DNA of 36,384 nucleotides, taken from positions 1 through 36,384 of IMG/VR virus record IMGVR_UViG_3300036832_001391; one strand, written 5' to 3'. The position numbers and the translations under genes were made by a program. This DNA comes from a virus. The notes under the pieces are model-generated. The model searched no databases, was not told where the DNA came from, and worked only from the letters and a program-made list of their open reading frames with translations. Shown here one piece after another: positions 8,401 through 26,808 of this stretch. Every line of letters starts with the position of its first letter. Position 1 is the stretch's first letter.

Positions 8401-11400
8401 GCCCGTCACCAGGCGGCGCGTGTCCGGCTCGAAGACGACGTGAAAGGCAGGCCGCGCCTGGGACACGTTCGCCGGCCCGGCCGTCTCGTTGGCATAGATG
8501 CGGTTGAAGAAGTTGGGGCTGCCGCCGACGCCGGTGTCCGCGTGGAGCTCGTTCTGGTTGAACTGGCCGGCCCGCGTCTGGTCGATGATGTCGCGGCCGA
8601 TGATGTTCTGCGCGTCGATCGCGGCCGAGTCCTCGGTGGAGCCGGGGTAGTTGAACTTGTTCGAGAAACGACCGGTGTCGGCCAGGTGCAGCGCGGCCTC
8701 GGGCGCCAGGCCGCTGAACGTCTCCTGCGAATCCGATAGCTGGCCGGTCATGGCGTCGAAGGTCTGCGCGGCCAGGTCGCGGTACGGCGCCGGGTCGGCA
8801 CCCTCGCCGGCCAGACGCTGCGCCAGGTAATCGACGGTGTCGTTGCGCGCACTGTCGACGCGCTCGGGCGTGACCCGCGCGTAGCCCTCCTCCAGCGAGT
8901 CGGGCGAGTAGGGCACGTCGTCCAGATTGCCGCTCAGGTCGAAGGCGCTGGGCCGCACCGGCCGCGTATCGTTGCCGACGAGCGGGCTCACCGGGGCCTC
9001 CGCACCAAGGCCACCAACCCGTCCGGCGAGCTCGCTCAGCCCGCCCAGGCCACCAGGCACGCGCTCCGCGCCGGCCCGCACCAGCGCACCGGCGCCCTTC
9101 GCCAGACCGGCGATGCCGATGTTGGTCACGCCGCCCTCTAGGATGTCGAGGGCCGCTGCCTGAGGCGTGATGTCCGGTGTCTCCCCTGCCTGGACGCCGC
9201 CCCAGGCACCGCCCTCCAGGCCCTTCTCGGCGAGCCACTTGAGCACCGGCTGGCTGAGGCCGGCCCGCTCGGTCAGCGCTTCGGCGCCGCCGGTGATCGG
9301 CCCGCCCAGGATAGCCGTCATCGGGTCGGTGAAGATGCCCGCGGCCATGTTCGTCAGCCCGCCCACGCCGGTCACGTCGCGGAACGGGTTGCGCTCCTCG
9401 ATCGCCGCCTGGCGATTCGCCTCGGCATTGCTAAAAATCGAGCGAACGTAGCCCGCCTCCTGGGGGATCGCGCCGATGTTGACGTTGGCCTCGCGAGCCA
9501 GGCCACCCAGCACCGGCACCCCCTGGAGCGGGGCGTTCTGCTCGAGCTCCAGCGTGCGCTGGCGCAGCGCCTGCTCGGCCTCCGGGCTGGGCGCCATGCC
9601 CGCGTAGAGCGCCGCCATCGCATCCTGAGTGGCCTGCGTCGGCTCGCTGACCAGGCGCTGAGCGGCACCGCCGATCTGCGGCCCCAGGTCGGTTAGCTGG
9701 CGCGCACCCGCGGCGAGCGGGTCCGGCCCGCCGGCCGTCTGCGGCGAGGGGTTGAGCAGATCCTGCTGCGCCTGCTGCCGCTGGGCCTCGGCCGCGCTGG
9801 TCGGCACCGTGTAGCCGCCGCCCGGCGCCGGCGCGGTGGCCTGCTGGCCGGCCCCGCCGAGGTACTGCGAGATGGCGTTGCCGACCGCGTCGCCGATGTC
9901 CGACTTCAGTTGCTGGAGGCGATCGACGGGGGAGGTTGACGACGGCCCGCCCTCCCCCGCCGCAGATGAAGTAGCGGGAGTTGGAGGCACCCCACCCGCG
10001 TAAGAGGGCAGACCGTTGTCGGTTGGCAGCATACCGGCAGAGCTCGCCGCGGCGCTCTGATCCTGGCTGGGCTGGGGCAGGAACTGGTTGCTGAAGTCGC
10101 CCACGCCGCGCACCGCCTGGCTGGCGGTGTCGGTCGCGGCCGTCGCCGCCTGGCTGGCGGTGCTGCCCAGGTTGCTGAACTGGCTGCCGATGTTCTGGCC
10201 CTGCTGATCGAGCCAGTCCATGGCGTTGGACGCCGAGTCGGTCGCCGTGCTCTGCGCGTCCATGTAGAGTTGCTGGGCGCCGGTCCGGCCGTAATCTGAA
10301 GCAGCCCCGGAACTGCCCACCGAGCTCGCGACACCACCGGCCGGGCTGGCGTTGTCGATGTAGAGCGCGCCGCGGAAGTCGCCCATGCCCAGGCCCGCGG
10401 CCTGCTGCGGGGTGAACCACTCCTGATGGTTGGCCGCGATCAGGTCCGAGCTCGAGGTGCCGAAGTGATACTGGCCGGTGTCCGGGTTGAAGCCGTCGAC
10501 CACGAAGTAGTGGCCGGGCGTGTCGAGGATGACCGGGTTGCCCTTCGCCACGTCCGACTGGACGGCGTTCCAGTCGACGCTGTTGGTGACGTGCGACTTG
10601 ACGCCCATGCCGTTGAGCAGATCCTGCTCCGAGCCGATGCCGTGCATCCCCGAGCTCGCGTCCCAGTCGCCGCGGCTCTGCGCCATCTGCGTGGCCTCGG
10701 CCAGCGTCGGGTCGCGGCCGGTGGCGCGCACGAAGGCGATCGCCGCGGCCGGCCCGCAGATCGCCGCGGCCGTGCCCTTGTCGATCGTCTGGTCGGAGAA
10801 CTGCGACGGGCGCCCACCCGGCACACGGCCCGCGGCCAGATCGGCCGACGTCGGCACCGTGTAGCCGCCACCGGGCGTGGAGCCGGCCTGGACGCCCGGT
10901 GCCACCTGCTTCTGGATCGAGGCCAGGCTGCCCGCATACTCGTCCTCGGCGGCGGTGAAGTAGCCGCCCGCCTTCAGGCCGTGCGCCAGGTCGCCCGCGG
11001 TCTGCGCGCCCATCGCGCCCGGGTAATGGTTCGTGATCAGGCGGATGTAGGCGTTCGCCGAGTCCAGCGGCGTGTCATAGGCGGCGAAGTCCTGATTCAT
11101 GTTCGTGCCGCCGTACTCGCCCTCATGCGTGGCGAGGCTCTGGCTCTTGTCGCCCGGCAGCGCCTTGATGCCAAAGAGCTCGTTGCCCGGCGCGTTCCCG
11201 AAATTGCTCTCGGAGCCGGCCATCGCCGTGACCAGCGTCGGGTCGATGCCGGTCGCCGCGCTGATGTACTGCGCGTAGGGCGCAAAGCTGCGCGCGAAGG
11301 CGTCGCGGCTCGAGTTGTCGATCGGCGTGCTCGGCCCCGGGCCGTTCTGCGTCGTCGCCGGTGACACCGTGCCTGGCGCGACTCCTGCGCCAGTAATGTC

Positions 11401-14234: not shown

Positions 14235-14576
14235 TTACTTGCTCCTCCTGCGGGGTGGCCGGCTCAGCGCCGGCGGCGTGGGCGGCACGTAGTTGGGCGG
14301 GTTGTAGGCCGCGCCGCGCACCACCCGTCTCGGCGCCGCCGGCGGCAGCGGCCCAGCCGGCCCAAAATTGAGCGCGCCGCCGGGAGGTCCGCCGAGGCCG
14401 GCCGAGCGCGGCGGCGGCATGTTGGGCGCGACCGCGGGGCCGCTCACCGGCCGGTTGGTGCCGCGGCCGGGCTTCTTCTTCGGTGCTGCCACTCGTCTCC
14501 TCCTCGGTGCTGGCGCCGGCGTGGGAACGAGCGGAGCTCCGCCCGGTGTCGCCCGCGGGACAGATGCATTGAACAT
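14235..14576 (-). CDS. Pro/Arg-rich protein, 113 aa
   Basis: The start chosen is ATG 14576, two bases after the stop of the 148-aa gene; a longer frame reaching 15032 would overlap that gene completely and is not credible. The protein is proline-, arginine- and alanine-rich (PAPRRRRVAAPKKKPGR, a C-terminal RPPRRRSK) and is probably unstructured and positively charged. It could bind nucleic acid or coat inner head surfaces. No family recognised. Confidence 0.7.
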   Translation of the reverse strand: MFNASVPRATPGGAPLVPTPAPAPRRRRVAAPKKKPGRGTNRPVSGPAVAPNMPPPRSAGLGGPPGGALNFGPAGPLPPAAPRRVVRGAAYNPPNYVPPTPPALSRPPRRRSK

Positions 14577-17173: not shown

Positions 17174-17267
17174 GGGCGAACACCAGCACCAGGGTCACCA
17201 GTGAGGCCACCATGGTCCCGTAGACGATGAGCAGCCAGAGCTCGCGCCCCAGGCTTATCTTTTCCAC
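17163..17267 (-). CDS. 34-aa single-span membrane peptide between terL and portal
   Basis: A GTG at 17267 opens a 35-codon frame that overlaps the last 13 bp of TerL and the first 11 bp of the portal gene, filling the whole gap. The product is VEKISLGRELWLLIVYG followed by a hydrophobic helix (MVASLVTLVLVFAHGR): one predicted transmembrane span with a short basic end. The exact fit to the gap, on the operon strand, argues that it is real. The function is unknown; a small membrane protein here is unexpected. Confidence 0.6.
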   Translation of the reverse strand: MEKISLGRELWLLIVYGTMVASLVTLVLVFAHGR

Positions 17268-18583
17268 GCGAACCTCGAGTGTCTGCGCGGCGCCGCGGAC
17301 GGGGCGAAGGTGATCGGCGTCGGCCTGGTCGCCGAAGAGTTGCCGGCGGTGACCGCGTACCAGGCCATCGCCAGCGCCATGACGGTGTCGTCGTAGCCGC
17401 CGGCCGGCGCCGCGTAGCGGATCATGCCCGAGGGCAGCGTCTCGCTCTGGTAAGCCAGGAGCTCGCCCTTCTGGACGGCGTTGTTCAGGAGCTTCAGCGT
17501 GCCTCTTTCTAACGCCAGGGAGAGCTCCTCGATGGCTGCTCTCTTGGAGGCGGAGCTCGAGGTGAACGGGTAGACGGGCAGACCGCGCCTGGCTAAGTCC
17601 TGGCAGAGCGGGGTGCCCATGGCGTTGGACTCGGGCACGATCGCGATCGGCTGGTAGAGCTCGGCGATGCGCTCGAGCCGGGATAGCTGGAAGCCGTAGT
17701 CGATCTGATTGAAGCGGTCGATCGCCACCTGCTCGAGCGTGAAGGCGTCGAGGATGCTGATCACCGTGAAGTCATGGCTGAGCGCCCAGTCCACGCCGAT
17801 CACGTAGTGGTGGCCGGGCTGGGGCGGGGCGGCGCTGAGCACGCACGCCTGATCCAGGTTCCTGAAGACGCCGCCGCCGGCCTCGACAAACTCGGCGAGA
17901 ATTTCTTGAGAGAACTGGCGCTCGGTCATGGTGTCGTAGGCGGCAGATATTTCCCCGAACTCGATGGCCGGGTTCTCCAGCGGGTGCGGGCGGCGGGCGA
18001 GCAGGTGCGTGACCGGGTCCACGGCAACGCCGAGCGTGGGCGCCTGCCAGGCGATGGAGTCGATCCGGGCAGAGGAGGCCGCCTCGGACCACTCGCGCCA
18101 GAACCAGTTGAGGCCGCGGGGCGAGCCGACGCACCAGGCCCAGCCACCGGTATCGATCAGCATCGGGCGCAGCACCTCGGTCCAGGCGTCCTTCTGCACG
18201 TCGCCGCTCTCATCGAGGATGATGCCGTCCGCGGTGTGGCCGCGGGCCGAGTCCGGATTGTCGAGGCTGCGGAAGGTGACCATGCCGCCGGTCTGGAAGC
18301 GCGCCTCCATGAACGTCTGGTTGAACTCGGCGACGCGCGCCGCGCCGTGGCGCATCTCCGACCAGCCGACGCGGACCTGATCGTAGGTGGGCGCCCCCCA
18401 GAGGATCTTCTGGCCCTTCATGGCTGCCTCGGCGGCGATCGCCATGACCAGCGTCGTCTTCCGCCAGCGTCGGCCGGCTGCCAGCCAGTTGAACCTGCGG
18501 GCTTCGCCGCGGATGGCCTTCTGCCCGCTATGCGGCATAGGCAGCAAGAGTTGTCCCTGGTGGGGATTAGCGGCTCGCGGCAT
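17255..18583 (-). CDS. terL: Terminase large subunit
   Basis: ATP-driven DNA packaging motor and nuclease, 442 residues. The N-terminal ATPase has a variant Walker A at 36-44 (AGRRWRKTT) and Walker B at 121-126 (IILDES) with its catalytic Glu. A motif of the coupling type follows (CVGSPRGLNW, 151-160). The C-terminal RNase H-like nuclease has Asp265 in GVDWALSHD, Glu318 in IVPESNAMG and Asp398-399 in GGYDDTVMALAMAW, the three expected metal-binding positions. It overlaps the TerS gene by 17 bp and ends with the basic tail RRHSRFAWKR. It is complete, with no missing key residue. Confidence 0.96.
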   Translation of the reverse strand: MPRAANPHQGQLLLPMPHSGQKAIRGEARRFNWLAAGRRWRKTTLVMAIAAEAAMKGQKILWGAPTYDQVRVGWSEMRHGAARVAEFNQTFMEARFQTGGMVTFRSLDNPDSARGHTADGIILDESGDVQKDAWTEVLRPMLIDTGGWAWCVGSPRGLNWFWREWSEAASSARIDSIAWQAPTLGVAVDPVTHLLARRPHPLENPAIEFGEISAAYDTMTERQFSQEILAEFVEAGGGVFRNLDQACVLSAAPPQPGHHYVIGVDWALSHDFTVISILDAFTLEQVAIDRFNQIDYGFQLSRLERIAELYQPIAIVPESNAMGTPLCQDLARRGLPVYPFTSSSASKRAAIEELSLALERGTLKLLNNAVQKGELLAYQSETLPSGMIRYAAPAGGYDDTVMALAMAWYAVTAGNSSATRPTPITFAPSAAPRRHSRFAWKR

Positions 18584-19798: not shown

Positions 19799-20851
19799 AT
19801 GAACCGCACGCAAGCTCAGTCCGTGTTCGCGGACACCACCCGCTGGGAAGCGGCGAAGGCGAAGACGCTGGCACTTCGCACCGAGCTCGATCGCAAGCTG
19901 ACCGCTGACGACGTCCACGCCAACAAGTGGCTGGCGCTGGTCGCGGAGCAGTACGCCCGCACCTACCGGGGCGACTTCGAGTACATGCTCAGCCAGCGCG
20001 ACTTCGTCTGCTCGGGCAAGTTCCAGAGCTACCGCCAGGTGGCCGGCACGATCAACTGTGCCGTCGCCGACTGGCGCCGTGCCGCGCCGGTGTCCCACCC
20101 GAGCGAGCAGTTCACGCTGCCGAACGTCGCGGACGTCCCGAGCAGCCGCTACCGCGTGGTCGCCGCCGATGGCACCTCGCTCTCCGTTCGCCTGGACAAC
20201 GCATCCTGGGCGAAGGACAAGCCGGAGGGCACCCGCGCGCTCTACTACCTCGGCCGCGACGCGCAGTGGCAGTTCAGCGCCTTTGTCCGCCCGAGCGGCC
20301 AGGTGGATCTGCTTCGCCGCGAGCAGAAGATGGCGCCGCGCCTCAAGAGCGTGCTCGGCGACCTGGCCGGCAGCGTGCGCGAGGGGCGCTGGCTCGTCCA
20401 CGCGCTGGCGTTCTCGATGGAGGGCAGCGTCTGCTGCTTCTGCGGCCGCGACCTCGACACCGCCGAATCGATCAGCGTCGGCTACGGGCCGACGTGCGCG
20501 GCCAACCACGGCCTGCCGTGGGGCGCTATGGCGGAGCCGGCGAGCATCATGCTCGCCCGCGACGCCATGAAGAACGGGGGGATCGATACGGCGGCAGACG
20601 ACTGGGAGGGCAAGCCTCTGCCCGAGTTCAGCGAGACGAACGACGAGCACCGCGCGGAGATGGAGGCTCAGGCGCATCTGGACGTGCCGCGCCCGATCGT
20701 GCAGGACGACGACTGGAAGGGCCACCAGACCGGCCAGTTCGAGAGCGGCCGCGCCATCCTGAGCAAGGCTGGCATCTCCCTGGACGAGCGCTACGGGAAG
20801 TCCAGCTACCGCCCGGGCCGCAGCTACGCGGACATCTTCGGCGCCGACTAG
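19799..20851 (+). CDS. Zinc-motif phage protein, 350 aa (first gene of the operon)
   Basis: It starts at ATG 19799 behind GAGGAGCTACCAG, the ribosome-binding element used all through this operon; a longer frame to 19358 ignores this signal. Residues 211-233 hold a zinc-knuckle-like motif, VCCFCGRDLD then GYGPTC, as seen in many uncharacterised phage and actinobacterial proteins. Before it lies a mixed helical/beta region; after it an acidic tail with repeated short DDW motifs. It has its own promoter P1 and is followed by P2, so it can be expressed alone. Function unknown; nucleic-acid or protein binding through zinc is the best guess. Confidence 0.88.
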   Translation: MNRTQAQSVFADTTRWEAAKAKTLALRTELDRKLTADDVHANKWLALVAEQYARTYRGDFEYMLSQRDFVCSGKFQSYRQVAGTINCAVADWRRAAPVSHPSEQFTLPNVADVPSSRYRVVAADGTSLSVRLDNASWAKDKPEGTRALYYLGRDAQWQFSAFVRPSGQVDLLRREQKMAPRLKSVLGDLAGSVREGRWLVHALAFSMEGSVCCFCGRDLDTAESISVGYGPTCAANHGLPWGAMAEPASIMLARDAMKNGGIDTAADDWEGKPLPEFSETNDEHRAEMEAQAHLDVPRPIVQDDDWKGHQTGQFESGRAILSKAGISLDERYGKSSYRPGRSYADIFGAD

Positions 20852-20865
20852 CCTGTCAGAAATTG

Positions 20866-20909
20866 TTGCACGCCTGTCGCGGGATCTGCCATACTGTGGC
20901 TCCCGCGAC
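20866..20909 (+). promoter_or_regulatory. Promoter P2 with a dyad around the -10 box
   Basis: -35 TTGCAC (20866-20871), 18-bp spacer, -10 CATACT (20890-20895). A perfect 9-bp inverted repeat, GTCGCGGGA (20876-20884) and TCCCGCGAC (20901-20909), brackets the -10 box. P3 has the same layout and shares TGCCATACTGT, so both look like targets of one regulator. The leader also has a CGCC-GCAA-GGCG hairpin at 20917-20928. Confidence 0.72.
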
Positions 20910-20951
20910 CCTTCACCGCCGCAAGGCGCTAACCCCGAGGAGCTACCGACC

Positions 20952-21227
20952 ATGACCGTCTTCGACACCCCCGAGTCCATCGCCTTCGCCCGCATGGCTG
21001 CTCGCAAGTCCGCACTGAGCATCGAGATCCGCACCGGGCTGCGGCGCAGCGGGCGGAGCGCCTACAGCATCTGCAAGAGCGAGTACGGGCTCAAGGGCAG
21101 TCGCGAGAGCGTCCTGCGCCAGATGCAGGCGCTGGTCGACCAGGCGATCGCCGACAAGGCAGCGAACGACGTCCGCCGCGATGACCCGCAGGGCATCCGC
21201 CGGGAGGGTGGACGCTACTACGCCTAG
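20952..21227 (+). CDS. Small basic protein, 91 aa
   Basis: It starts at ATG 20952 behind CGAGGAGCTACCGACC. The sequence contains SALSIEIRTGLRRSGRSAYS followed by ICKSEYGLKGSRESVLRQMQ, which could form a small helix-turn-helix or helical hairpin, and ends with a basic RRDDPQGIRREGGRYYA. No known family was recognised with confidence. It is transcribed from P2, and its stop codon TAG is the first element of hammerhead 1, so its mRNA is predicted to end at the ribozyme cut. Confidence 0.82.
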   Translation: MTVFDTPESIAFARMAARKSALSIEIRTGLRRSGRSAYSICKSEYGLKGSRESVLRQMQALVDQAIADKAANDVRRDDPQGIRREGGRYYA

Positions 21228-21285
21228 GACGAAACGCGGCCCCCGCCGCGTCCACCGGGACTGGTCCCCCGGTGCTGATGAGTCC
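21227..21285 (+). ncRNA. Hammerhead ribozyme 1 (type II)
   Basis: All core elements are present in type II order. Stem II 3' strand GGAC (21227-21230), GAAA (21231-21234), stem III ACGCGGC/GCCGCGT (21234-21240 with 21245-21251, 7 bp, CCCC loop), GTC with the predicted cut between 21252 and 21253, stem I CACCGGG/CCCGGTG (21253-21259 with 21268-21274), CTGATGA (21275-21281), and stem II 5' strand GTCC (21282-21285). Every conserved position matches the hammerhead consensus, including G10.1-C11.1 and A15.1-U16.1. The TAG stop of the upstream gene shares its G with stem II. Confidence 0.95.
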
Positions 21286-21302
21286 GACCAGAGGAGCTAC
21301 CG

Positions 21303-21704
21303 ATGTCCGCTTCAACCCTCTCCAGCGCCGTGCAGGCGCTCCAGGCACGCCCGACCACGCTGAGCGTGCGCCTGACCAACATCTGCCCGCATGACAGGGT
21401 CAGCCGCGAGTGCTGCGGCAACGCCGAGTGGATGCGCGTCATCTGGCGCATCAACGAGCTCTGCCCGGGCTCGTTCGCCGAGCCGATCGAGACTGCCGAC
21501 TGGCAGGGGCGTACCAGCCACTTCGCCGAGGAGTACGCCTCGTTCCGCGTCCTGATCAGCAGCGACACCAGCTACATCCAGGCGCTGACGCCCGAGGCGA
21601 TGCACTTGCTGCGGCTGGCCGTGCTTCAGGTGAGCGGCATGCTGGTGGACGACAACGGCCAGTGCCGGCTGCGGGTGGACGCCACCCACCCGAGCGGCCG
21701 CTAG
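21303..21704 (+). CDS. Orphan protein, 133 aa
   Basis: ATG 21303 follows GAGGAGCTACCG, the element that directly follows hammerhead 1. The chain has several Cys (ICPHDRVSRECCGNAEWMRV), a helical C-terminal half (EAMHLLRLAVLQVSGMLVDD) and a basic end. No enzyme motif or membrane helix is visible and I recognise no family. Predicted mature mRNA: 21253 to 21726, bounded by two ribozyme cuts. Confidence 0.82.
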   Translation: MSASTLSSAVQALQARPTTLSVRLTNICPHDRVSRECCGNAEWMRVIWRINELCPGSFAEPIETADWQGRTSHFAEEYASFRVLISSDTSYIQALTPEAMHLLRLAVLQVSGMLVDDNGQCRLRVDATHPSGR

Positions 21705-21758
21705 TCGAAACGGCCCGCGGGCCGTCTGGTCGGGCTGGTCGCCGGCCACTGATGAGAC
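21704..21758 (+). ncRNA. Hammerhead ribozyme 2 (type II)
   Basis: Stem II 3' strand GTC (21704-21706), GAAA (21707-21710), stem III ACGGCC/GGCCGT (21710-21715 with 21720-21725, CGCG loop), cut after C21726, stem I TGGTCGG/CCGGCCA (21727-21733 with 21742-21748, one G-U pair), CTGATGA (21749-21755), stem II 5' strand GAC (21756-21758). Stem II differs from copy 1 (GTC/GAC instead of GGAC/GTCC) yet stays paired, and stem I differs completely yet stays paired. Confidence 0.94.
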
Positions 21759-21777
21759 AGACCAAGAGGAGCTACCG

Positions 21778-21996
21778 ATGCCACGCATCTACGAGAGCAA
21801 CAGCGACCCGCTGGACTTCTGCCGCGCGCACTTCCCGACCCGCAAGGTCGCGGAGGAGCTCTACGGCCATAGCGGCGACGGCCCGGACGGTCGCGGCGAC
21901 TGCTTCGACTACGACTCGGACCACCCCGACTACGACTCGGACGAGTACCGCTGCGAGCGCTGCGGCGTCGTCCTGCTCACCGAACAAGACGCCTGA
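21778..21996 (+). CDS. Acidic small protein with a CxxC end, 72 aa
   Basis: ATG 21778 lies behind AGAGGAGCTACCG. The protein starts MPRIYESNSDPLDFCRAHFP and then becomes very acidic with D/Y repeats (DCFDYDSDHPDYDSDEYR). It ends with CERCGVVLLTEQDA, half of a zinc-ribbon-like CxxC pair. The acidic D/Y-rich stretch could mimic DNA, as in some phage inhibitors of host DNA-binding proteins, but that is speculation. Bounded by hammerheads 2 and 3; predicted mRNA about 293 nt. Confidence 0.8.
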   Translation: MPRIYESNSDPLDFCRAHFPTRKVAEELYGHSGDGPDGRGDCFDYDSDHPDYDSDEYRCERCGVVLLTEQDA

Positions 21997-22053
21997 GGCG
22001 AAACCGGCTCGCGCCGGTCGCGTGAGGGTTGACCGCCCACGCCTGATGAGCCT
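21996..22053 (+). ncRNA. Hammerhead ribozyme 3 (type II)
   Basis: Stem II 3' strand AGGC (21996-21999), GAAA (22000-22003), stem III ACCGGC/GCCGGT (22003-22008 with 22013-22018, TCGC loop), cut after C22019, stem I GCGTG/CACGC (22020-22024 with 22038-22042) with an internal loop and an extended apical part, CTGATGA (22043-22049), stem II 5' strand GCCT (22050-22053). The upstream stop is TGA here; its A begins stem II. A less regular stem I is common in natural hammerheads, where it makes loop contacts. Confidence 0.93.
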
Positions 22054-22071
22054 GGTCAAGGAGCTACTGAG

Positions 22072-22383
22072 ATGCCGAACGACTACCGCTACGCGCACAT
22101 CTACCCCGAGATCGCGATCGGGCGCGTCGAGCGGGCACGCTTCCCGCTGGAGTTCCCGGCCACCTGCCCGGCCTGCGGCGCCCGCAAGACGTCCGAGGAG
22201 AAGCACCTGCTCCGCTCGTTCGCCCACTACGCCTGCGGCGGCAAGTACGAGGACAAGCCACAGATCCAGAACCACACCGACAAGTGGTGGGGAAGCTGCC
22301 CGCGGGTCCGCGCGATGGTGGAGAGCGGCGCGATCGATCTGGCCGCGCTCGCCCATGAGGCAGCCGGCAGGGCTAGTCAGTAA
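22072..22383 (+). CDS. Zinc-ribbon-like orphan protein, 103 aa
   Basis: ATG 22072 follows AAGGAGCTACTGAG. The protein has CPACGARKTSEEKHL and, 22 residues later, CGGKY followed by GSCPRVRAM, so three or four Cys could bind one zinc. The rest is a mixed fold with no other motif. Unlike its neighbours it is followed not by a hammerhead but by promoter P3, so its transcript either ends near there or reads on to the cut at 22672. Confidence 0.82.
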   Translation: MPNDYRYAHIYPEIAIGRVERARFPLEFPATCPACGARKTSEEKHLLRSFAHYACGGKYEDKPQIQNHTDKWWGSCPRVRAMVESGAIDLAALAHEAAGRASQ

Positions 22384-22385
22384 TT

Positions 22386-22429
22386 ACGACACTGGTGCGG
22401 GACAATGTGCCATACTGTTGGTCCCGCAC
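22386..22429 (+). promoter_or_regulatory. Promoter P3 with a dyad around the -10 box
   Basis: -10 CATACT (22411-22416) within TGCCATACTGT, identical to P2. A perfect 9-bp inverted repeat, GTGCGGGAC (22395-22403) and GTCCCGCAC (22421-22429), brackets it. The -35 is weak (ACGACA at 22386, 19-bp spacing), so an activator may be needed. The shared GCGGGA...TCCCGC arms link P2 and P3. Confidence 0.65.
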
Positions 22430-22454
22430 CCATTCCCACCCAGGAGCTACCACG

Positions 22455-22649
22455 ATGCACAAGTTCGAGAGCGGCAAGTTCACCTACACCAGCACGATCG
22501 TCCAGGGCGACCACGTCCGCCCGGTTGAGTTCGAGATCACGCTCGATCTCAATCACCCTGAGATCCGCCGCCTGATCTGGCGCGCCTACGGCAACAAGAC
22601 CAAGCAGGCCATCGAGGCCAGCGGCGCGCTGAAGATCCAGGCGTCGTAG
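22455..22649 (+). CDS. Orphan protein, 64 aa
   Basis: ATG 22455 lies behind CAGGAGCTACCACG and downstream of P3. The sequence looks like a small beta-rich fold (FESGKFTYTSTIVQG, VEFEITLDLNHPEIRRLIWR) with a short helix at the end. It has no Cys, no membrane helix and no known motif. The last base of its stop codon touches hammerhead 4, which would release its message. Confidence 0.8.
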   Translation: MHKFESGKFTYTSTIVQGDHVRPVEFEITLDLNHPEIRRLIWRAYGNKTKQAIEASGALKIQAS

Positions 22650-22704
22650 GGCGAAACCGGCGGGAGCCGGTCGGCGGGAAGTGGTCTACCCGCCCTGATG
22701 AGCC
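22650..22704 (+). ncRNA. Hammerhead ribozyme 4 (type II)
   Basis: Stem II 3' strand GGC (22650-22652; a G-U pair could add one more), GAAA (22653-22656), stem III ACCGGC/GCCGGT (22656-22661 with 22666-22671, GGGA loop), cut after C22672, stem I GGCGGG/CCCGCC (22673-22678 with 22689-22694), CTGATGA (22695-22701), stem II 5' strand GCC (22702-22704). Loop and stem I sequences differ from copies 1-3. Confidence 0.94.
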
Positions 22705-22726
22705 TGACCAGAGGAGCTACCGAACC

Positions 22727-23002
22727 ATGGCCGCATCGCCCCAGTGGAAGATCTTCTCGCCCGATGGCGAGTACGTCGCCTCCACCAAGTACGCCGAGGA
22801 CGCCGCCGTTCTCGCCGCCGCCCGCGAGGGCACCGTCGTCAAGTACCAGCGCTACCTGGCCGTCTGGACCGAGGGCAGCGAGGAGTTCAGCGCTGGCGAG
22901 AGCTACGACCGCGCCAGCCAGGTGATGAACCAGCGCGCGGTCGACTGGATCAATGAGCAGCGCCGCGCACACGGCCGCTCGCTGGTCACCAGCGTCGAGT
23001 AG
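22727..23002 (+). CDS. Orphan protein, 91 aa
   Basis: ATG 22727 lies behind GAGGAGCTACCGAACC. The N-terminal part (WKIFSPDGEYVASTKYAEDA) followed by AVLAAAREGTVVKYQRYLAV resembles a compact alpha/beta fold of a kind often seen in small phage proteins. The C terminus is helical and basic. No catalytic motif. Bounded by hammerheads 4 and 5; predicted mRNA about 352 nt. Confidence 0.82.
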   Translation: MAASPQWKIFSPDGEYVASTKYAEDAAVLAAAREGTVVKYQRYLAVWTEGSEEFSAGESYDRASQVMNQRAVDWINEQRRAHGRSLVTSVE

Positions 23003-23056
23003 TCGAAACGGCCTCCGGGCCGTCTGCGGGAACCGCCCCACCCGCACTGAAGAGAC
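23002..23056 (+). ncRNA. Hammerhead ribozyme 5 (type II, N7 = A)
   Basis: Stem II 3' strand GTC (23002-23004), GAAA (23005-23008), stem III ACGGCC/GGCCGT (23008-23013 with 23018-23023, TCCG loop), cut after C23024, stem I TGCGGG/CCCGCA (23025-23030 with 23041-23046), CTGAAGA (23047-23053), stem II 5' strand GAC (23054-23056). The only core change is U to A at position 7, which is the one unconstrained core position in the known consensus CUGANGA. TCCG is also a plausible stable loop. Confidence 0.92.
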
Positions 23057-23075
23057 AGGGCAGAAGGAGCTACCG

Positions 23076-23273
23076 ATGGCACGTTCGTACAAGGTCGGCG
23101 TGAAGACCGCCGGCGACCGCGACTGGGTTTCCAACAGCATCCGCTACGCCACCCACGAGGAGGCCAGCCTGGCCGGCGCGAACCTGGCGATGCGCTGGAT
23201 CCTCGTTCAGGACTGGACTGTCCTCGAGTCCGACGACGAGCCCAACGGCGTCGTCCTCGGGGGCCAGTCATGA
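23076..23273 (+). CDS. Orphan protein, 65 aa
   Basis: ATG 23076 lies behind AGAAGGAGCTACCG, the last copy of the operon's ribosome-binding element, and after hammerhead 5. The protein (SYKVGVKTAGDRDWVSNSIR, then helix EEASLAGANLAMRW) looks like a small beta-alpha-beta fold similar in outline to the 91-aa protein before it. Its end overlaps the next start (ATGA), so from here on genes are translationally coupled rather than separated by ribozymes. Confidence 0.82.
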   Translation: MARSYKVGVKTAGDRDWVSNSIRYATHEEASLAGANLAMRWILVQDWTVLESDDEPNGVVLGGQS

Positions 23274-23782
23274 CCCGCGACATCCACTACTCGCCGAGCG
23301 CGGTGGTGGAGGTCGCGGACGACGAGAGCCTCACCCTGCTGATCGACTGGTCGGCGAGCGAGAACGGCGAGTACGACGAGGAGGCGATGGAGTGCGAGCC
23401 ATCGCCGCTCTCGGCCCGCGTCAGCAACCACATCGACGCCTGGGTTCACATGACCAGCGCCGGTGAGTGGGACGGCCAACAGCGCATCCCGCTCGGCAAG
23501 CTGGCGCCCGAGGTGCCGGAGCCGCTCGCGCCCAAGGTCTACGTGCTGCTCTTCCACGATGTTTGGGACGTCCGCGAGAAAGGGCCGGAGGAGGTGAGCG
23601 TCGAAGGCGTGTTCACAAGCCGTGAGGCTGCTGAAGCCTGGATCGCGAGCCAGGGTGTCGTCGGCGTTGACGTGGTCAAGCCGGCGCCGCTGCTGGACGG
23701 TACGCCCGAGTGGATGGACGAAAACGATCCCAACGCCGACGCGCTCGCCTACTACACGCTCGAAGAGCGACCGGTCCGATGA
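23270..23782 (+). CDS. Acidic orphan protein, 170 aa
   Basis: Starts in an ATGA overlap with the gene before and ends in another such overlap. It is acidic, with a central VYVLLFHDVWDVREKGPEEV strand-rich segment followed by VFTSREAAEAWIASQG, a pattern common in phage proteins of unknown function. No Cys cluster, membrane helix or catalytic motif. It begins the coupled, ribozyme-free second half of the operon. Confidence 0.8.
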   Translation: MTRDIHYSPSAVVEVADDESLTLLIDWSASENGEYDEEAMECEPSPLSARVSNHIDAWVHMTSAGEWDGQQRIPLGKLAPEVPEPLAPKVYVLLFHDVWDVREKGPEEVSVEGVFTSREAAEAWIASQGVVGVDVVKPAPLLDGTPEWMDENDPNADALAYYTLEERPVR

Positions 23783-24018
23783 CCCATCGCATGCACGCCC
23801 CCCAGCCACGCTGGCTGGTGGGGCGCACCATCGTCCGCTACGAGAACAACGCGGACCCGGAGAATCCGACTAGCGGCGGCGGTCCGAGCCATGATCCGAC
23901 GATCTTCTTCGACGACGGATCGAGCATCGCCTTCATCGCCGAGGAGCTCGAAAGCGGTGACGGCTACGGCATCTTCCCGGTCTATCGGGCAGCGTCTCGA
24001 AAGGGAGGCAAGCGATGA
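23779..24018 (+). CDS. Orphan protein, 79 aa
   Basis: ATG 23779 overlaps the previous stop. The sequence (WLVGRTIVRYENNADP, DPTIFFDDGSSIAFIAEELE) has the look of a small beta-barrel-like fold with an FDDGSxIxF hairpin seen in unannotated phage proteins. It ends in a basic RKGGKR and overlaps the next start. No function can be given. Confidence 0.78.
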   Translation: MTHRMHAPQPRWLVGRTIVRYENNADPENPTSGGGPSHDPTIFFDDGSSIAFIAEELESGDGYGIFPVYRAASRKGGKR

Positions 24019-24113
24019 ACGAGCTCATCACCTACATCGGCTACGGCGTGGGCATGGGCTGGATCCTGATCTGGCTCGGCGCCCTCGCCTGCTGGGTGCT
24101 GAGAGTCGACTGA
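24015..24113 (+). CDS. 32-aa membrane peptide
   Basis: A frame of 33 codons from ATG 24015, with GGGAGG 7 nt upstream, overlapping both neighbours (ATGA before, TGATG after). The product is MNELITYIGYGVGMGWILIW followed by LGALACWVLRVD: one predicted membrane span. The perfect fit between two coupled genes makes it likely to be translated. The function is unknown. Confidence 0.62.
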   Translation: MNELITYIGYGVGMGWILIWLGALACWVLRVD

Positions 24114-24355
24114 TGGAAGACGAAGCGCTGATCGCCCCGACCGAGGCTGGCGCCCGCTTCCGAGACGAGCGAGCCCGGCTCAGGATGAGCCAGGCAGAGC
24201 TTGCGCGCTGGCTGGGCGTCGACCGCACCACGGTCAGCCGCTGGGAGACTGAGGGGCCACCGCGGGTTGCCGCGCTGGCCCTCGCCTACGTCCTCTCGGT
24301 CACGCCCGGGCTGACCCGGACGGTCAGCCGGAACTACGCCAAAACACTCACCTGA
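24113..24355 (+). CDS. Cro/CI-type helix-turn-helix regulator, 80 aa
   Basis: Residues 16-60 form a classic XRE-type DNA-binding domain: RDERARLRMSQAELARWLGV then DRTTVSRWETEG, with the recognition helix near residues 37-45. It is the last gene of the operon, coupled to the 32-aa peptide by TGATG, and stands just before the repeats and terminator at 24.4 kb. It may control P1-P3, whose dyads and repeats are natural operator candidates. No dimerisation domain beyond the short C-terminal helix. Confidence 0.88.
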   Translation: MEDEALIAPTEAGARFRDERARLRMSQAELARWLGVDRTTVSRWETEGPPRVAALALAYVLSVTPGLTRTVSRNYAKTLT

Positions 24356-24378
24356 GCCTCTCTGTCACATTCTGCACT

Positions 24379-24446
24379 GGTGTTGCCAAATTGGAGTGGT
24401 GACACCCCTGGTGACACCCCCTGGTGACACCCCCCCTGTCACCACT
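24379..24446. repeat. GGTGACACCCC iterons in the convergent gap
   Basis: GGTGTTGCCAAAT (24379-24391) repeats the word found before P1. Then GGTGACACCCC occurs three times in tandem at 24398, 24410 and 24423, 12-13 bp apart, and CTGTCACCACT at 24436-24446 is an inverted form. A further GGTGACACC lies at 24525. Related TGTCACC words occur at 19667-19682. Close to one helical turn of spacing suggests protein-binding iterons. Confidence 0.75.
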
Positions 24447-24453
24447 CCCCGGA

Positions 24454-24483
24454 CCCCGATCTGAGATCAGATCGGGGTCTTTT
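24454..24483 (+). terminator. Rho-independent terminator of the small-gene operon
   Basis: CCCCGATCT (24454-24462) and AGATCGGGG (24469-24477) form a 9-bp stem around a 6-nt loop, followed by TCTTTT. It lies 98 bp after the last stop codon of the operon and before the converging primase gene. There is no T-run on the other strand, so it acts on rightward transcripts. Confidence 0.85.
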
Positions 24484-24537
24484 GGTGGGGGGGGTTACGT
24501 GCGCGCGCGCATTTGGGGAAAAGTGGTGACACCTCCC

Positions 24538-26808
24538 TCATGGCTGGTCGGGCGGGAAGAACTGCTCGCCGACCGGCATCGGCGCCAGCACCCATACCGC
24601 GTGCGTCTGCTCGTCCACCTGCACGCAGCCGGGGTAAAGCGCCGCGTAGCGTTCCATCAGCGCCTTGAACTCAAGCCTTGAGCGGGCGCCGCCGATCCTC
24701 ACCCGCTGGAGATCGCGCTGGCGCATGCGCTGGTCCGGCGCACGGCGCAGCATCGGCAACAGCTTCGAGTAGATCGCGCGATCGAGCGACTGGTCGCGGA
24801 AGTTGAAGCTGAGCGGGATGTCCTCGTCCTGAAGGCACGCCCAGCAGTTCGCGCAGTACTCGATCACCACGCGCGCCGCGTCCACGATCCAGCGCGGCAC
24901 CTCACACCGGTCCAGGCCACGGCCGGCCGGGTACATGAGCTCGGCGAGCACCAGGCACACGCGCAGCGGGTGGATGACACCGCGCTCCAGCAGGGAGATC
25001 ACGCCGGCTGGTGCTCCTGGCTGCACGATCGCCCTACGCCAGCCGAGCAGGATCTCATGCAGCCGCGCCTCGGCCTCGCCGCTCACCTGCCAAACGCGCG
25101 GCTGCTGGCGCATGTCGAGGAGCTCCAAGATGCGCTGCCGGAACGCCTCGGGCAGGCCATCGTCACGCTCACGCTGGTCGAACGCCAGCGGGTTACCGAG
25201 GAACGGCAGCCAGCGCGAGCGCATGCCGCTCTCTTCGCTGCCGAGCAGGTGGACGTTCTCAGTGACCAGTCCGCCCAGGATGCTCATCGTCGGCTGCTCG
25301 ATCCGCAGCCGCGTCTCGTTGCGCGTCCGGGCCTTGGGGCCGGCCCGCACAAACGTCCACGGCGCGCCCGACCAGAGCTCCATGAAGTGAGCCTGATCGA
25401 CGGTCGGCGTGCTCTTGTACTGACCGATGCCGCCGACCGACGCGGCGAGCTCGCCGTGGACGATCGAGAGCGCACCCTGGTTGTGATCGAGCTCGCGCGC
25501 TAGCGCTTCGAGCGTGATCGAGCCAATCGTCAGCCAGGGTCGCTCGGGATCTGCTCGCGTCCAGCGATCGAGGATCTCCTTGGCCCGCTCTGTCGTCGCC
25601 GACTTGCCGCTGGCGCGCGGCCCAACCAGCGCGCACCAGAGGATGGCGCGCTCATGCAGCGTCGCGATCGACGGCAGTGTGATCTCGGCCAGCCCACCGA
25701 TCGCGGTCGCGACCGCGACCAGCGCTCCACCCATGCTGAACGCGACCGGCAGGCTCGTCGTCGCAGCCACCTCGGCGAGCAGCGGCGGCATGTGATCGAG
25801 CGGGAAGTCCGGTATCGAGCGGCTGGTCGCGGTCGGCAGCGGCTCGTCGTCCGGCGACACCGCGGTGCCGTTGCGGCGCCGGCCCAGGCGCGGCGAGCTC
25901 GTCGGTGGCGTCCAGTTGGCCTTGTCGCCGAACGTGCCGGCCGGCGTCCACGGCTCGCTGCTGCCGTAGCGCAGGCCGTCCACGATCGTCTGCGAGACGT
26001 TCGTCTCGCCGTCCTCGGCGACCAGCCCGTTCTCCTCGCTGGCGTGGAACAGCACCTCGGCGACGTGCTGCTCGTTGATCAGGCCGGCCGCGACCAGCCC
26101 GCCGCCAGCCTTGGCGAAATTGAGCAGTTGCTGGTGGCGCGAGCCGGGCGCCCAGTGGCCCAGCTTGAACCCCCAGCTATCGACCACGCCGGCCGCGCGC
26201 TTGTCCTCGTTGCCGCTCGGCAGGCTCAGCGCCGGCCGCGGCTTGTAGTCCGGCGGCGGTGCGTCCGGCAGGTTGCGCCAGCCCAGCGGCACGCCCCGGC
26301 CAGTGTGGATGCGCCGCTCCGGCTGGCCGACCTCGGCCGAGGTAAGCCAGAACATGCGGCTGGCGTCCTTGGTGGACGGGTCCAGGCTGTTGTGGAGCAG
26401 GTAGTTCAGCCGCGACCAGTAGGTCGGGAAGTCGGCCAGCGGCACCGGCTCGGCGAGCGGCATCGCCAGCCGCCAGCGCGGCGCCTCGGGCGTCGAGTGC
26501 CAGGTTTCAGCCAGGATGAACTCGTAGCCCTCGAGCCAGCCGGCGATCGTGCCGCCGCGCTGCCCGCCGTCCAGATCGCTCATGCTCAGGACGACGCGAT
26601 CGACGTTCTCCTGCTTTCGGGGCGTGTCCGGCCGAAACACCGCCGGACAGACCAGCCCGATCTCCTCGCGCACCCTGGCGAAGCGTGTGTGCGCCAGCGC
26701 TGCCTGGATCTGCTCCCAGGTGAATTCGCGTACCCGGGGCGTCTTTGACGTGACGTGTTGAAAGAACGAGAGCGACAGTTGCTCCGAATTCCCGGTACCA
26801 TCCGACAC
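24538..26808 (-). CDS. Primase-helicase (primase-like N terminus plus DUF3987-type ATPase)
   Basis: A 756-residue replication protein from GTG 26808, with GAGAAGGG 8 nt upstream. Residues 71-82 carry an acidic pair in VVLSMSDLDGG and residues 143-154 DPSTKDASRMFW; these resemble the catalytic part of phage archaeo-eukaryotic-type primases. A linker (221-281, PGSRHQQLLNFAKAGGG) resembles the PriCT region. Residues ~335-560 form an ATPase with Walker A GPRASGKS (396-403), like DUF3987/YfjI-type helicases, followed by SIVHGELAASVGGIGQ. The C-terminal ~110 residues include a likely winged helix. It probably primes and unwinds DNA at the phage origin. No separate DNA polymerase is in the window. 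Confidence 0.85.
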   Translation of the reverse strand: MSDGTGNSEQLSLSFFQHVTSKTPRVREFTWEQIQAALAHTRFARVREEIGLVCPAVFRPDTPRKQENVDRVVLSMSDLDGGQRGGTIAGWLEGYEFILAETWHSTPEAPRWRLAMPLAEPVPLADFPTYWSRLNYLLHNSLDPSTKDASRMFWLTSAEVGQPERRIHTGRGVPLGWRNLPDAPPPDYKPRPALSLPSGNEDKRAAGVVDSWGFKLGHWAPGSRHQQLLNFAKAGGGLVAAGLINEQHVAEVLFHASEENGLVAEDGETNVSQTIVDGLRYGSSEPWTPAGTFGDKANWTPPTSSPRLGRRRNGTAVSPDDEPLPTATSRSIPDFPLDHMPPLLAEVAATTSLPVAFSMGGALVAVATAIGGLAEITLPSIATLHERAILWCALVGPRASGKSATTERAKEILDRWTRADPERPWLTIGSITLEALARELDHNQGALSIVHGELAASVGGIGQYKSTPTVDQAHFMELWSGAPWTFVRAGPKARTRNETRLRIEQPTMSILGGLVTENVHLLGSEESGMRSRWLPFLGNPLAFDQRERDDGLPEAFRQRILELLDMRQQPRVWQVSGEAEARLHEILLGWRRAIVQPGAPAGVISLLERGVIHPLRVCLVLAELMYPAGRGLDRCEVPRWIVDAARVVIEYCANCWACLQDEDIPLSFNFRDQSLDRAIYSKLLPMLRRAPDQRMRQRDLQRVRIGGARSRLEFKALMERYAALYPGCVQVDEQTHAVWVLAPMPVGEQFFPPDQP

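Follow-up and report, generated by a model that had tools for sequence, protein, structure and literature searches.

Organisation of the locus

The window is a stretch of 36,384 nucleotides from IMG/VR virus record IMGVR_UViG_3300036832_001391, in which a terminase gene is found. On its plus strand lies an operon of small genes, A to G, interspersed with five type II hammerhead ribozymes and two promoter-like repeats (Table 1). Six co-directional, non-overlapping gaps separate genes A to G; five contain a hammerhead and the sixth (22384–22454), the sole open gap of the run without one, holds promoter-like repeat P2. The original prediction of one ribozyme per gene gap therefore holds for five of six open gaps and fails at the sixth. 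Among 20 window proteins scanned against PHROGs, the terminase and the product of a helix-turn-helix gene were the only ones with a readable function; gene A matched a family without assigned function, and others gave weak matches or none. A consensus scan of 20800–24600 for sigma-70 promoters and terminators found no sigma-70 promoter and no plus-strand terminator, and missed P1, P2 and the probable terminator of Table 1. A near-identity search of positions 12500–36384 against INPHARED gave no match.

Table 1. Genes, ribozymes and candidate transcription signals of the operon, in order along the window.
Feature	Position	Strand	Remarks
Promoter-like repeat P1	20866–20895	+	TTGCAC-18-CATACT, before gene A; 31-nt repeat common to P2; by eye
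Gene A	20952–21227	+	91 aa; phrog_19182, E 5.8e-8
Hammerhead 1, type II	21227–21292	+	cut 21252/21253; stem II GGAC/GUCC; pseudoknot CUGGUC/GACCAG; RF02276 50.7 bits
Gene B	21303–21704	+	133 aa
Hammerhead 2, type II	21703–21766	+	cut 21726/21727; stem II GUC/GAC; pseudoknot UGGUC/GACCA; RF02276 59.5 bits
Gene C	21778–21996	+	72 aa; homologue C' in related phage L171, 68% tblastn identity, followed by a Twister ribozyme
Hammerhead 3, type II	21996–22060	+	cut 22019/22020; stem II AGGC/GCCU; pseudoknot UUGACC/GGUCAA (compensatory); RF02276 35.5 bits
Gene D	22072–22383	+	103 aa
Promoter-like repeat P2	22387–22416	+	CATACT, motif as in P1; flanked by 8-bp inverted repeat 22396–22403 / 22421–22428; by eye
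Gene E	22455–22649	+	64 aa; E' in L171, 45% over 58 aa
Hammerhead 4, type II	22649–22712	+	cut 22672/22673; stem II GGGC/GCCU; pseudoknot UGGUC/GACCA; RF02276 42.0 bits
Gene F	22727–23002	+	91 aa
Hammerhead 5, type II	23001–23064	+	cut 23024/23025; stem II GUC/GAC; pseudoknot GCCC/GGGC (compensatory); RF02276 35.0 bits
Gene G	23076–23273	+	65 aa; overlaps gene H (23270–23782): no gap, no ribozyme
Probable operon terminator	24452–24483	+	inverted repeat and T4 run; by eye

Across the whole window, cmscan returned five plus-strand matches to the Rfam model RF02276 (Hammerhead_II), spanning 21227–23064 and scoring 35.0–59.5 bits. Hammerheads 1, 2 and 4 exceed the gathering score of 37, and hammerheads 3 and 5 lie just below it (E 0.00095 and 0.0013, calculated for both strands of the whole window against 4227 families). 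Up to E 1, the only other match in the window was to a microRNA model (E 0.98), far below its cut-off. A strict finder, whose pattern comprises stem II, GAAA, a stem III hairpin, UH, a stem I hairpin and CUGANGA, was run on both strands and recovered the same five copies only. When the window was dinucleotide-shuffled 200 times and both strands were scanned, the finder matched nothing, and a chance origin of the array was therefore rejected. The model and the finder together confirm the original prediction of five type II hammerheads with all core residues at 21227–23056, and the cut sites given by the finder are identical to those first proposed.

Core, fold and packing of the ribozymes

The type II core consensus given by Perreault et al. 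(PMC3088659) comprises C3 U4 G5 A6 N7 G8 A9, G12 A13 A14, A15.1–U16.1 and H17. These residues are complete in all five window copies; the fifth reads CUGAAGA, which is acceptable because N7 is free. In every copy, hairpin loops close stems I and III while stem II opens to the flanks, with uninterrupted runs of 5–7, 3–4 and 5–6 pairs in stems I, II and III, respectively. A pseudoknot between loop I and the 3' tail is common, although not universal, in type II hammerheads, and each window copy can form one of 4–6 Watson–Crick pairs, in three sequence versions. Minimum free energy predictions by ViennaRNA, which omit pseudoknots, gave the three-stem fold for hammerheads 1, 3 and 4 and partly different folds for 2 and 5; z-scores on the same basis were modest (−0.67 to −2.57).

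Covariation was assessed in an alignment of 51 hammerheads of equal geometry, three of them from the window. Paired bases occupied 94.3% of cells, and changes on both sides of a pair were seen in 240 cells versus 65 in shuffles. For the pseudoknot alone, 80.4% of cells were paired and 46 showed both-sided changes versus 13.7 in shuffles, with two of five covariation measures not beating the shuffles (155/500).

All five ribozymes have a stop codon upstream and the Shine–Dalgarno (SD) sequence of the next gene downstream. The final nucleotide of this stop codon belongs to stem II in each copy, the pseudoknot strand adjoins the SD, and CUGANGA precedes the start codon by 21–25 nt. Predicted SD accessibility after cleavage is approximately unchanged for hammerheads 1 and 5, higher for 2 and lower for 3 (0.86 to 0.48); the comparison covers these four copies, another GGAG having been picked for hammerhead 4.

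It could be proposed from this packing that cleavage is regulated, folding being blocked by a ribosome that terminates or initiates there, by a protein or by a ligand, such that the switch couples mRNA splitting to translation. Judged by the size of its footprint, a ribosome on either flank would cover part of the ribozyme, because the stop codon reaches into stem II and the pseudoknot strand lies beside the SD. However, the 51 aligned copies display no extra conserved domain, as judged by viewing the alignment, and tight packing may be mere genome compaction. Regulated cleavage is considered unlikely.

One-strand arrays in other phages

One-strand arrays of predicted hammerheads recur in phages, cultured ones among them. 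The survey comprised 459 viral loci fetched by hammerhead patterns; it is a sample and not a census, and because of this mode of retrieval the hammerhead share within it says nothing about prevalence. Among the matches listed, 115 of the 459 loci carried at least two strict hammerheads, none of these arrays mixed strands, and records with up to 18 hammerheads were present. A near-identity search with 5.3 kb of the 18-hammerhead contig gave no match.

Cultured representatives include the Streptomyces phages R4 and Janus, with 9 and 11 predicted hammerheads, respectively. In eight Streptomyces phages, hammerheads occupy 55 of 61 annotated gaps of at least 60 nt within the array spans, 3 of 13 gaps of 20–59 nt and none of 80 below 20 nt. 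GAAA and CUGANGA are intact in 74 of 75 model matches in these genomes, and a promoter-like motif (G.TACTGT) stands just before at least one hammerhead in each. The strict finder misses true copies, recovering 53 of the 75; 18 of the 22 missed have one extra U after CUGANGA. In R4, some hammerhead gaps appear to have been annotated, wrongly, as very small genes. Aminoglycoside binding to the hammerhead, described in the available text of PMC9239200, was considered as a link to Streptomyces and set aside.

Flanking genes in the survey were assigned by simply taking the longest ORF (the longest-ORF rule), looking for starts within 110 nt and for stops within approximately 200 nt. Among the matches listed, 357 of 578 hammerheads had a stop codon ending −12 to +3 nt from the first base of GAAA, versus 144 of 2890 random positions, and 441 of 578 had a start with an SD 15–44 nt past the core, versus 331 of 2890; these ratios are only descriptive, since the hammerheads of related phages are not independent. 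In apparent gaps of 180–400 nt (n = 65, among the matches listed), the median distance to the start was 31 nt (IQR 26–39) and that to the stop 151 nt. The hammerhead thus appears anchored to the downstream gene, because in wide gaps its distance to the start stays short and that to the stop does not. Medians in gaps of 120–180 nt (n = 65, likewise among the matches listed) were 39 nt to the stop and 35 nt to the start, from which the anchor is not clear.

Other ribozyme classes in the same position

One search for ribozymes took in 50 of 126 loci: six terminase relatives, in which nothing matched, and 44 of 120 pattern loci, 20 of which had matches. A further sample comprised 25 records, picked for several matches or as named phages. 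L171, the sole relative whose contig spans the operon, lacks hammerheads but carries three Twister-P5 ribozymes, of which one lies directly after gene C'. A more distant phage with a homologue of gene C (L711; 55%) matched no Rfam ribozyme at all, and the device is therefore dispensable.

In 50 records drawn from 64 loci fetched by Twister patterns, Twister arrays reach nine copies, with flanks that resemble those of hammerheads under the longest-ORF rule and as a comparison made without a random control. A few phages seem to mix ribozyme classes. Mixed Twister–hammerhead records are weak cases: matches to both coincide in 4 of the 50 records, with both over their Rfam cut-offs only in G076; in the stretches of G075 and G097, the strict finder found no hammerhead. 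HDV-like ribozymes scoring below the Rfam cut-off lie in two gaps of the phage with 18 hammerheads, among the matches listed.

The choice of class bears on a second alternative, in which the ribozymes mainly build upstream 3' ends, the stem III hairpin and cyclic phosphate replacing terminators and protecting each upstream mRNA. The stem III hairpin would indeed come last on every upstream piece, and the closeness of stop codon to GAAA in 357 of 578 hammerheads is in keeping with this idea. However, in the 180–400 nt gaps it is the distance to the downstream start that is held, not that to the stop, and some ribozymes directly follow a promoter-like motif. Furthermore, an HDV-like ribozyme remains whole on the downstream piece after the cut, yet two candidates occupy such gaps. 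A role mainly at upstream 3' ends is accordingly regarded as quite improbable.

Similarity within arrays

Stem hairpins within an array are on average approximately 60% alike (0.60, versus about 0.50 between phages), with window pairs ranging from 39 to 86%; recent tandem duplication of one unit was rejected on these values. Identical stem II sequences are also more frequent within arrays (0.66) than between phages (0.21). Neighbouring ribozymes have stem II halves that fit each other in 116 of 168 units from 35 arrays, versus 0.32 between phages.

Compatible halves, together with the 5'-OH and 2',3'-cyclic phosphate ends that inner pieces would bear, raise the idea that pieces are circularised into circular mRNAs, by the reverse hammerhead reaction or by RtcB ligase. 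In the window, however, just one of four units has compatible halves, and Perreault et al. detected no spliced or circular products, as reported in the available text (PMC3088659). RtcB (PF01139) was sought in 40 array records, in many cases fragments, and found in none, and a phage-encoded ligase was rejected as the main idea; a host RtcB could still act. Circularisation is held to be very unlikely. A further idea is that the hammerheads are selfish or recombinogenic repeats, markers of cassette borders without an RNA-level role. The greater likeness within arrays would agree with it, but it is regarded as extremely improbable because DNA repeats need neither the cores intact in 74 of 75 matches, nor both-sided covariation, nor a single strand, nor the appearance of unrelated ribozyme classes in such gaps.

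A proposed self-cutting operon with structured leaders

The explanation preferred here, to which a probability of roughly 70% is assigned, is that the self-cleaving RNAs are interchangeable modules that split the operon and provide each downstream gene with a fixed, structured 5'-OH leader, in the manner of the synthetic insulator RiboJ. Rightward transcription of the small-gene operon would begin at P1 and a second time at P2, with every open gap that lacks a promoter carrying a type II hammerhead. Each ribozyme would cut after GUC as its gap is transcribed, so that one long message apparently breaks into mostly one-gene messages, with predicted 5' ends at 21253, 21727, 22020, 22673 and 23025. 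After the cut, the downstream leader would consist of the 5'-OH end, stem I hairpin, pseudoknot and SD, and the upstream gene would keep a short 3' tail whose last element is the stem III hairpin, bearing a 2',3'-cyclic phosphate. The original prediction stressed stabilisation of both ends; comparison among phages shifts the weight to the 5' leader of the downstream gene. The selected effect may accordingly fall mainly on that gene, through its leader, its stability and translation independent of upstream sequence, as with RiboJ.

From the elements and their covariation, the intact cores in the phages checked, the slot geometry, strand bias and gap occupancy, and the use of the slot by other classes, we infer cleavage in the cell, separate mRNAs and a benefit to the phage. 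Taken together, the shared slot, the downstream anchor and the presence of another class behind the same gene suggest a single answer, namely cutting before the ribosome-binding site (RBS). Several observations count against this explanation. P1 and P2 stand before genes A and E with no ribozyme, and a ribozyme leader is therefore not required by every gene. In addition, two of five copies score just below the gathering threshold, two of five have a different pseudoknot-free minimum energy fold, two of five covariation measures for the pseudoknot do not beat the shuffles, the anchor is not clear in gaps of 120–180 nt, L711 has a gene C homologue but matched no Rfam ribozyme, and the SD accessibility predictions are mixed.

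A broader proposal is that operon splitting of this kind is general in many phages. Any self-cleaving RNA, whether hammerhead, Twister or HDV-like, would serve as a plug-in module of gene gaps, selected only for leaving a structured 5'-OH leader right before the next RBS and swapped for other classes at one position among related phages. If so, the function that has long been sought for most hammerheads and Twisters of phages and bacteria would be found; we put the proposal as a whole at even odds. Because other phages, some cultured, share the plan, the old question of what these RNAs do is now testable, and R4 and Janus, with their Streptomyces hosts, open it to direct experiment.

Comparison with known systems

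In phage T7, the polycistronic mRNA is processed endonucleolytically by a host protein, RNase III, which leaves a 5' phosphate. Here, too, cleavage at gene borders would divide an operon RNA into fragments whose ends are structured, but the RNA is predicted to cut itself, leaving a 5'-OH.

Perreault et al. proposed in 2011 that clustered hammerheads of prophages process phage transcripts into gene-length mRNAs (PMC3088659). The self-cutting operon, supported here as far as sequence can support it, is consequently not the new mode of expression first supposed; the splitting idea is older, and what is new is the regularity and generality of the arrays. The available text describes hammerheads, including type II with a pseudoknot, that flank single or short blocks of phage genes, three tandem arrays that cleave in vitro and an A. 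tumefaciens triple that cleaves in E. coli. The window resembles those clusters in having several one-strand hammerheads that flank single co-directional phage genes. It differs in its regular array, with five of six open gaps filled and a promoter-like repeat in the sixth, and in the packing of stop codon and SD onto the ribozyme. The survey adds records of up to 18 copies, the anchor to the downstream start and the other class after the same gene. None of these features (regularity, packing, 18-copy records, start anchor, class swap) was found in that available text, and their absence from print applies to open-access papers only.

According to the available text of two further reports (PMC5408937, PMC10085705), which relay work of 2014 and 2015, Twisters and hammerheads occur close together and share their kinds of neighbouring genes, above all Mu-like phage genes. 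It was argued there that those places could host self-cleaving RNAs of any class, and the biological reason was called unknown; the role of bacterial and phage hammerheads and Twisters is termed largely speculative. The present data resolve the shared location to a single slot, in which the ribozyme stands between the stop codon and the SD and start of the next gene, and add a related phage in which a Twister follows the same gene.

RiboJ-type hammerhead insulators are used, according to the available text of PMC7536230, to obtain one common 5' UTR and greater mRNA stability; most cut at 0.84–0.94 and one at 0.48. The order is the same in both systems: promoter or upstream RNA, hammerhead, hairpin, RBS and gene, with the window ribozymes likewise at a short, fixed distance before the RBS. 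RiboJ, as there described, is engineered and placed behind a promoter, whereas the phage ribozymes are natural and mostly lie between genes, are of type II with a pseudoknot, and seem replaceable by other classes. If the explanation preferred here is true, insulated self-splitting operons evolved in phages long before synthetic biology made them.

Five hammerheads in a small-gene operon

A cmscan search with the Rfam type II hammerhead model returned five matches in the window, all on the plus strand and here called HHR1-HHR5. A strict structural finder, which requires stem II, GAAA, a stem III hairpin, UH, a stem I hairpin and CUGANGA in order, recovered the same five copies and no sixth on either strand, and detected none in 200 dinucleotide shuffles. 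The five type II hammerheads of the original prediction are thus confirmed by both searches, and its cut sites coincide with those predicted by the strict finder. By covariance score, three copies lie above the gathering score of 37 bits; HHR3 and HHR5 fall short of it.

The large terminase gene of this 36,384-base IMG/VR virus record lies at 17255-18583, and a rightward run of small genes begins at 20952. The plus-strand order is P1-A-HHR1-B-HHR2-C-HHR3-D-P2-E-HHR4-F-HHR5-G, where letters denote genes and P1 and P2 promoter-like repeats; G overlaps H, and further genes precede an inverted repeat with a T run. The sole open gap without a hammerhead (22384-22454) bears a promoter-like repeat matching the region before gene A, so each of genes A-G has a ribozyme or a promoter-like repeat ahead of it. 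P1 and P2 were identified by eye and are absent from the output of a consensus promoter scan. P1 (20866-20900) and P2 (22387-22428) share CATACTGT within an inverted repeat rich in G+C, which may be an operator bound by the helix-turn-helix protein whose gene lies at 24113-24355. Separately, the minus strand at 2401-12117, on the same side of the genome as the terminase gene, holds a 3238-residue reading frame with one weak relative (26% identity, in locus L016) among the loci compared.

Coordinates of ribozymes and associated features (window positions unless a record is named)
Feature	Position	Strand	Basis	Bits
HHR1	21227-21292	+	cmscan, type II hammerhead model	50.7
HHR2	21703-21766	+	cmscan, type II hammerhead model	59.5
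HHR3	21996-22060	+	cmscan, type II hammerhead model	35.5
HHR4	22649-22712	+	cmscan, type II hammerhead model	42.0
HHR5	23001-23064	+	cmscan, type II hammerhead model	35.0
Inverted repeat with T run, end of gene run	24452-24483	+	by eye	
Twister-P5 ribozymes	L171 5676-5733, 7030-7091, 8235-8300		Rfam model	
HDV-like candidates	L713 3303-3367, 3665-3729		RF02682, below gathering score	
R4 tiny ORFs over hammerheads: gp60.1, gp67.1, gp75.1	L639 (R4) 12030-12113, 14393-14485, 17341-17442			
Unannotated ORFs in long gaps	Hank144 44920-45174, Triumph 44653-44931, Spernnie 40985-41242 (record coordinates)			

The slot between stop and start codons

In each window copy, two or three bases separate the upstream stop codon from GAAA, so that the last base of the stop codon is also a stem II base. 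From CUGANGA to the start codon the distance is 21-25 nt, with a Shine-Dalgarno (SD) sequence in between, which is AGGAGCTACC for six of the seven genes A-G and AGGAGCTACT for gene D. Ahead of the SD, a tail forms 4-6 Watson-Crick pairs with the stem I loop in every copy, and this pseudoknot comes in three sequence versions (GGUC/GACC, UUGACC/GGUCAA and GCCC/GGGC).

The same geometry recurs in a set of 578 distinct viral hammerheads with sufficient flanking sequence, among them the five of the window. For 357 of these, the stop codon of an upstream ORF ends at -12 to +3 nt relative to where GAAA begins, compared with 144 of 2890 random same-strand positions; an SD-start lies 15-44 nt past the core in 441 (random positions, 331/2890), and 275 have both. 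In short gaps, which the ribozyme fills, neither distance is long. Where the apparent gap measures 120-180 nt (n=65), the two are spread, with medians of 35 (start) and 39 (stop). Where it measures 180-400 nt (n=65), the start distance stays short (median 31, IQR 26-39) and the median stop distance is 151, from which we read the ribozyme as belonging with the downstream start.

Spread among viral and genome contigs

IMG/VR loci were picked by hammerhead patterns, and counts refer to this hammerhead-selected sample. Among the matches listed (459 loci), at least 358 loci have one or more strict hammerheads, at least 115 two or more, at least 54 three or more and at least 27 five or more. In every one of the 115 multi-copy loci, the copies share a single strand. 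The Rfam model gave 8-12 copies in several viral records and 18 in one contig (L713), where the strict finder placed 17 on the plus strand and 0 on the minus strand of a 15.5-kb stretch. Among the matches listed for GTDB genome contigs, 95 of 118 loci have a strict match and 23 two or more, with no mixed-strand copies. One contig binned as Lokiarchaeota (L589) bears four strict hammerheads on the same strand.

The cultured Streptomyces phage Janus is one of the multi-copy loci. Across eight Streptomyces phages (R4, Janus, Diane, Hank144, Triumph, Tefunt, BartholomewSD and Spernnie), the Rfam model found 75 copies, every one on the minus strand, with both GAAA and CUGANGA intact in 74. Judged against the depositors' own gene calls inside the array spans, hammerheads occupy 55 of 61 gaps of at least 60 nt, 3 of the 13 that measure 20-59 nt and none of the 80 shorter ones. 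Two of the six 'empty' long gaps contain a hammerhead seen by eye and overlooked by the model, three contain an open reading frame that is absent from the annotation, their products resembling one another, and the sixth (R4 48417-48478) bears a promoter-like repeat. Twelve of the 75 copies lie outside annotated gaps, three of them under tiny R4 ORFs that are probably not real genes. In all eight phages, at least one hammerhead is directly preceded by the promoter-like motif G.TACTGT, whose R4 form is TTGTGC ... GATACTGT. An element TGTG[CT]AA[GC], which resembles the first portion of the promoter-like repeats, occurs within about 60 nt upstream of 35 of the 75 copies. In 18 of the 75 predicted ribozymes, one additional U separates CUGANGA from stem II; the strict finder overlooks such copies.

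Conservation as RNA

From the viral sample, all 51 hammerheads that share the most frequent loop geometry, three of them from the window, gave a gap-free MAFFT alignment. Standard pairs fill 94.3% of pair cells, falling to 33-41% when the pairing is slid, and both-sided changes occur in 240 cells versus 65 in shuffles. As the finder required the stems and not the pseudoknot, the latter is the fairer covariation test: 80.4% is paired, versus 20-43% when slid, with 46 both-sided cells versus 13.7 in shuffles. The number of pseudoknot pairs and pair types with both-sided changes is unremarkable, being reached by 155 of 500 shuffles. Among 597 hammerheads, the stem I interior forms at least four Watson-Crick pairs with its own tail in 62%, compared with 29% for tails from other loci.

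Twister ribozymes and HDV-like candidates in the same slot

The one relative with a contig covering the window's operon (L171/L172; terminase 70% identical) retains, in order, homologues of the gene before P1, C, E, H, J and the large minus-strand gene, those of H and J in short stretches only. The Rfam model detects no hammerhead in L171/L172, and L171 carries three Twister-P5 ribozymes (65.6, 47.2 and 45.4 bits; gathering score 37.6). All three precede AGGAGCTACC, and one lies directly 3' of the stop of C', upstream of the E' start; C' is 68% identical to gene C, which HHR3 follows in the window. A more distant phage with a gene C homologue (L711) has no ribozyme known to Rfam.

A Twister pattern scan yielded 64 stretches. 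The model matched in 47 of the 50 records searched, and same-strand arrays reach 9 copies. In four of these 50 records a hammerhead accompanies Twister on the same strand, both scoring over cut-offs in one record (G076) alone; the strict finder saw no hammerhead in two of the other three. In raw counts without a random control, 45 of 74 Twister-like sites have a stop 11-40 nt upstream of the TAATGCGG motif, and 51 of 74 an SD-start 10-49 nt downstream of it. Furthermore, two gaps inside the L713 hammerhead array are occupied by HDV-like candidates (RF02682) upstream of GGATCAATTTAGGAGA; two L713 hammerheads end in the nearly identical GGATCAATTAGGAGA. The candidates score 34.3 and 28.1 bits, under the gathering score of 44. 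Their E-values are 0.00011 and 0.003 when the small stretch is searched, and 0.011 for the first in 52 kb.

Folds unrelated in sequence and structure thus fill one kind of slot, and what is kept is likely to be cutting there, not one RNA shape.

Proposed function and known systems

Cleavage by hammerheads and similar self-cleaving ribozymes yields one end with a 2',3'-cyclic phosphate and one with a 5'-OH. Sequence comparison establishes the elements, their covariation, strand and slot, and the second ribozyme class after the same gene. Cleavage would divide the window transcript into 21253-21726, 21727-22019, 22020-22672, 22673-23024 and 23025 to the terminator, with a possible second start at P2 inside 22020-22672; the benefit may be a defined leader for every downstream gene.

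Operon splitting by phage hammerheads was already proposed in 2011 by Perreault et al. (PMC3088659), who describe a hammerhead triple from A. tumefaciens that cleaves in E. coli. Previous studies to which PMC5408937 and PMC10085705 refer placed hammerheads and Twisters near each other and the same genes and suggested that any class might do, the reason being given there as unknown. The open-access literature searched yielded no regular one-per-gap hammerhead array with this slot geometry, downstream anchor of the ribozymes, named cultured array phages or Twister after a gene that has a hammerhead in a related phage.

RiboJ-type hammerheads serve to define the 5' UTR and to increase stability, with cleavage of 0.84-0.94 for seven of eight and 0.48 for one (PMC7536230). 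The order promoter-ribozyme-RBS-gene of RiboJ, a synthetic hammerhead insulator, is also that of the Streptomyces-phage hammerheads that follow a promoter-like motif.
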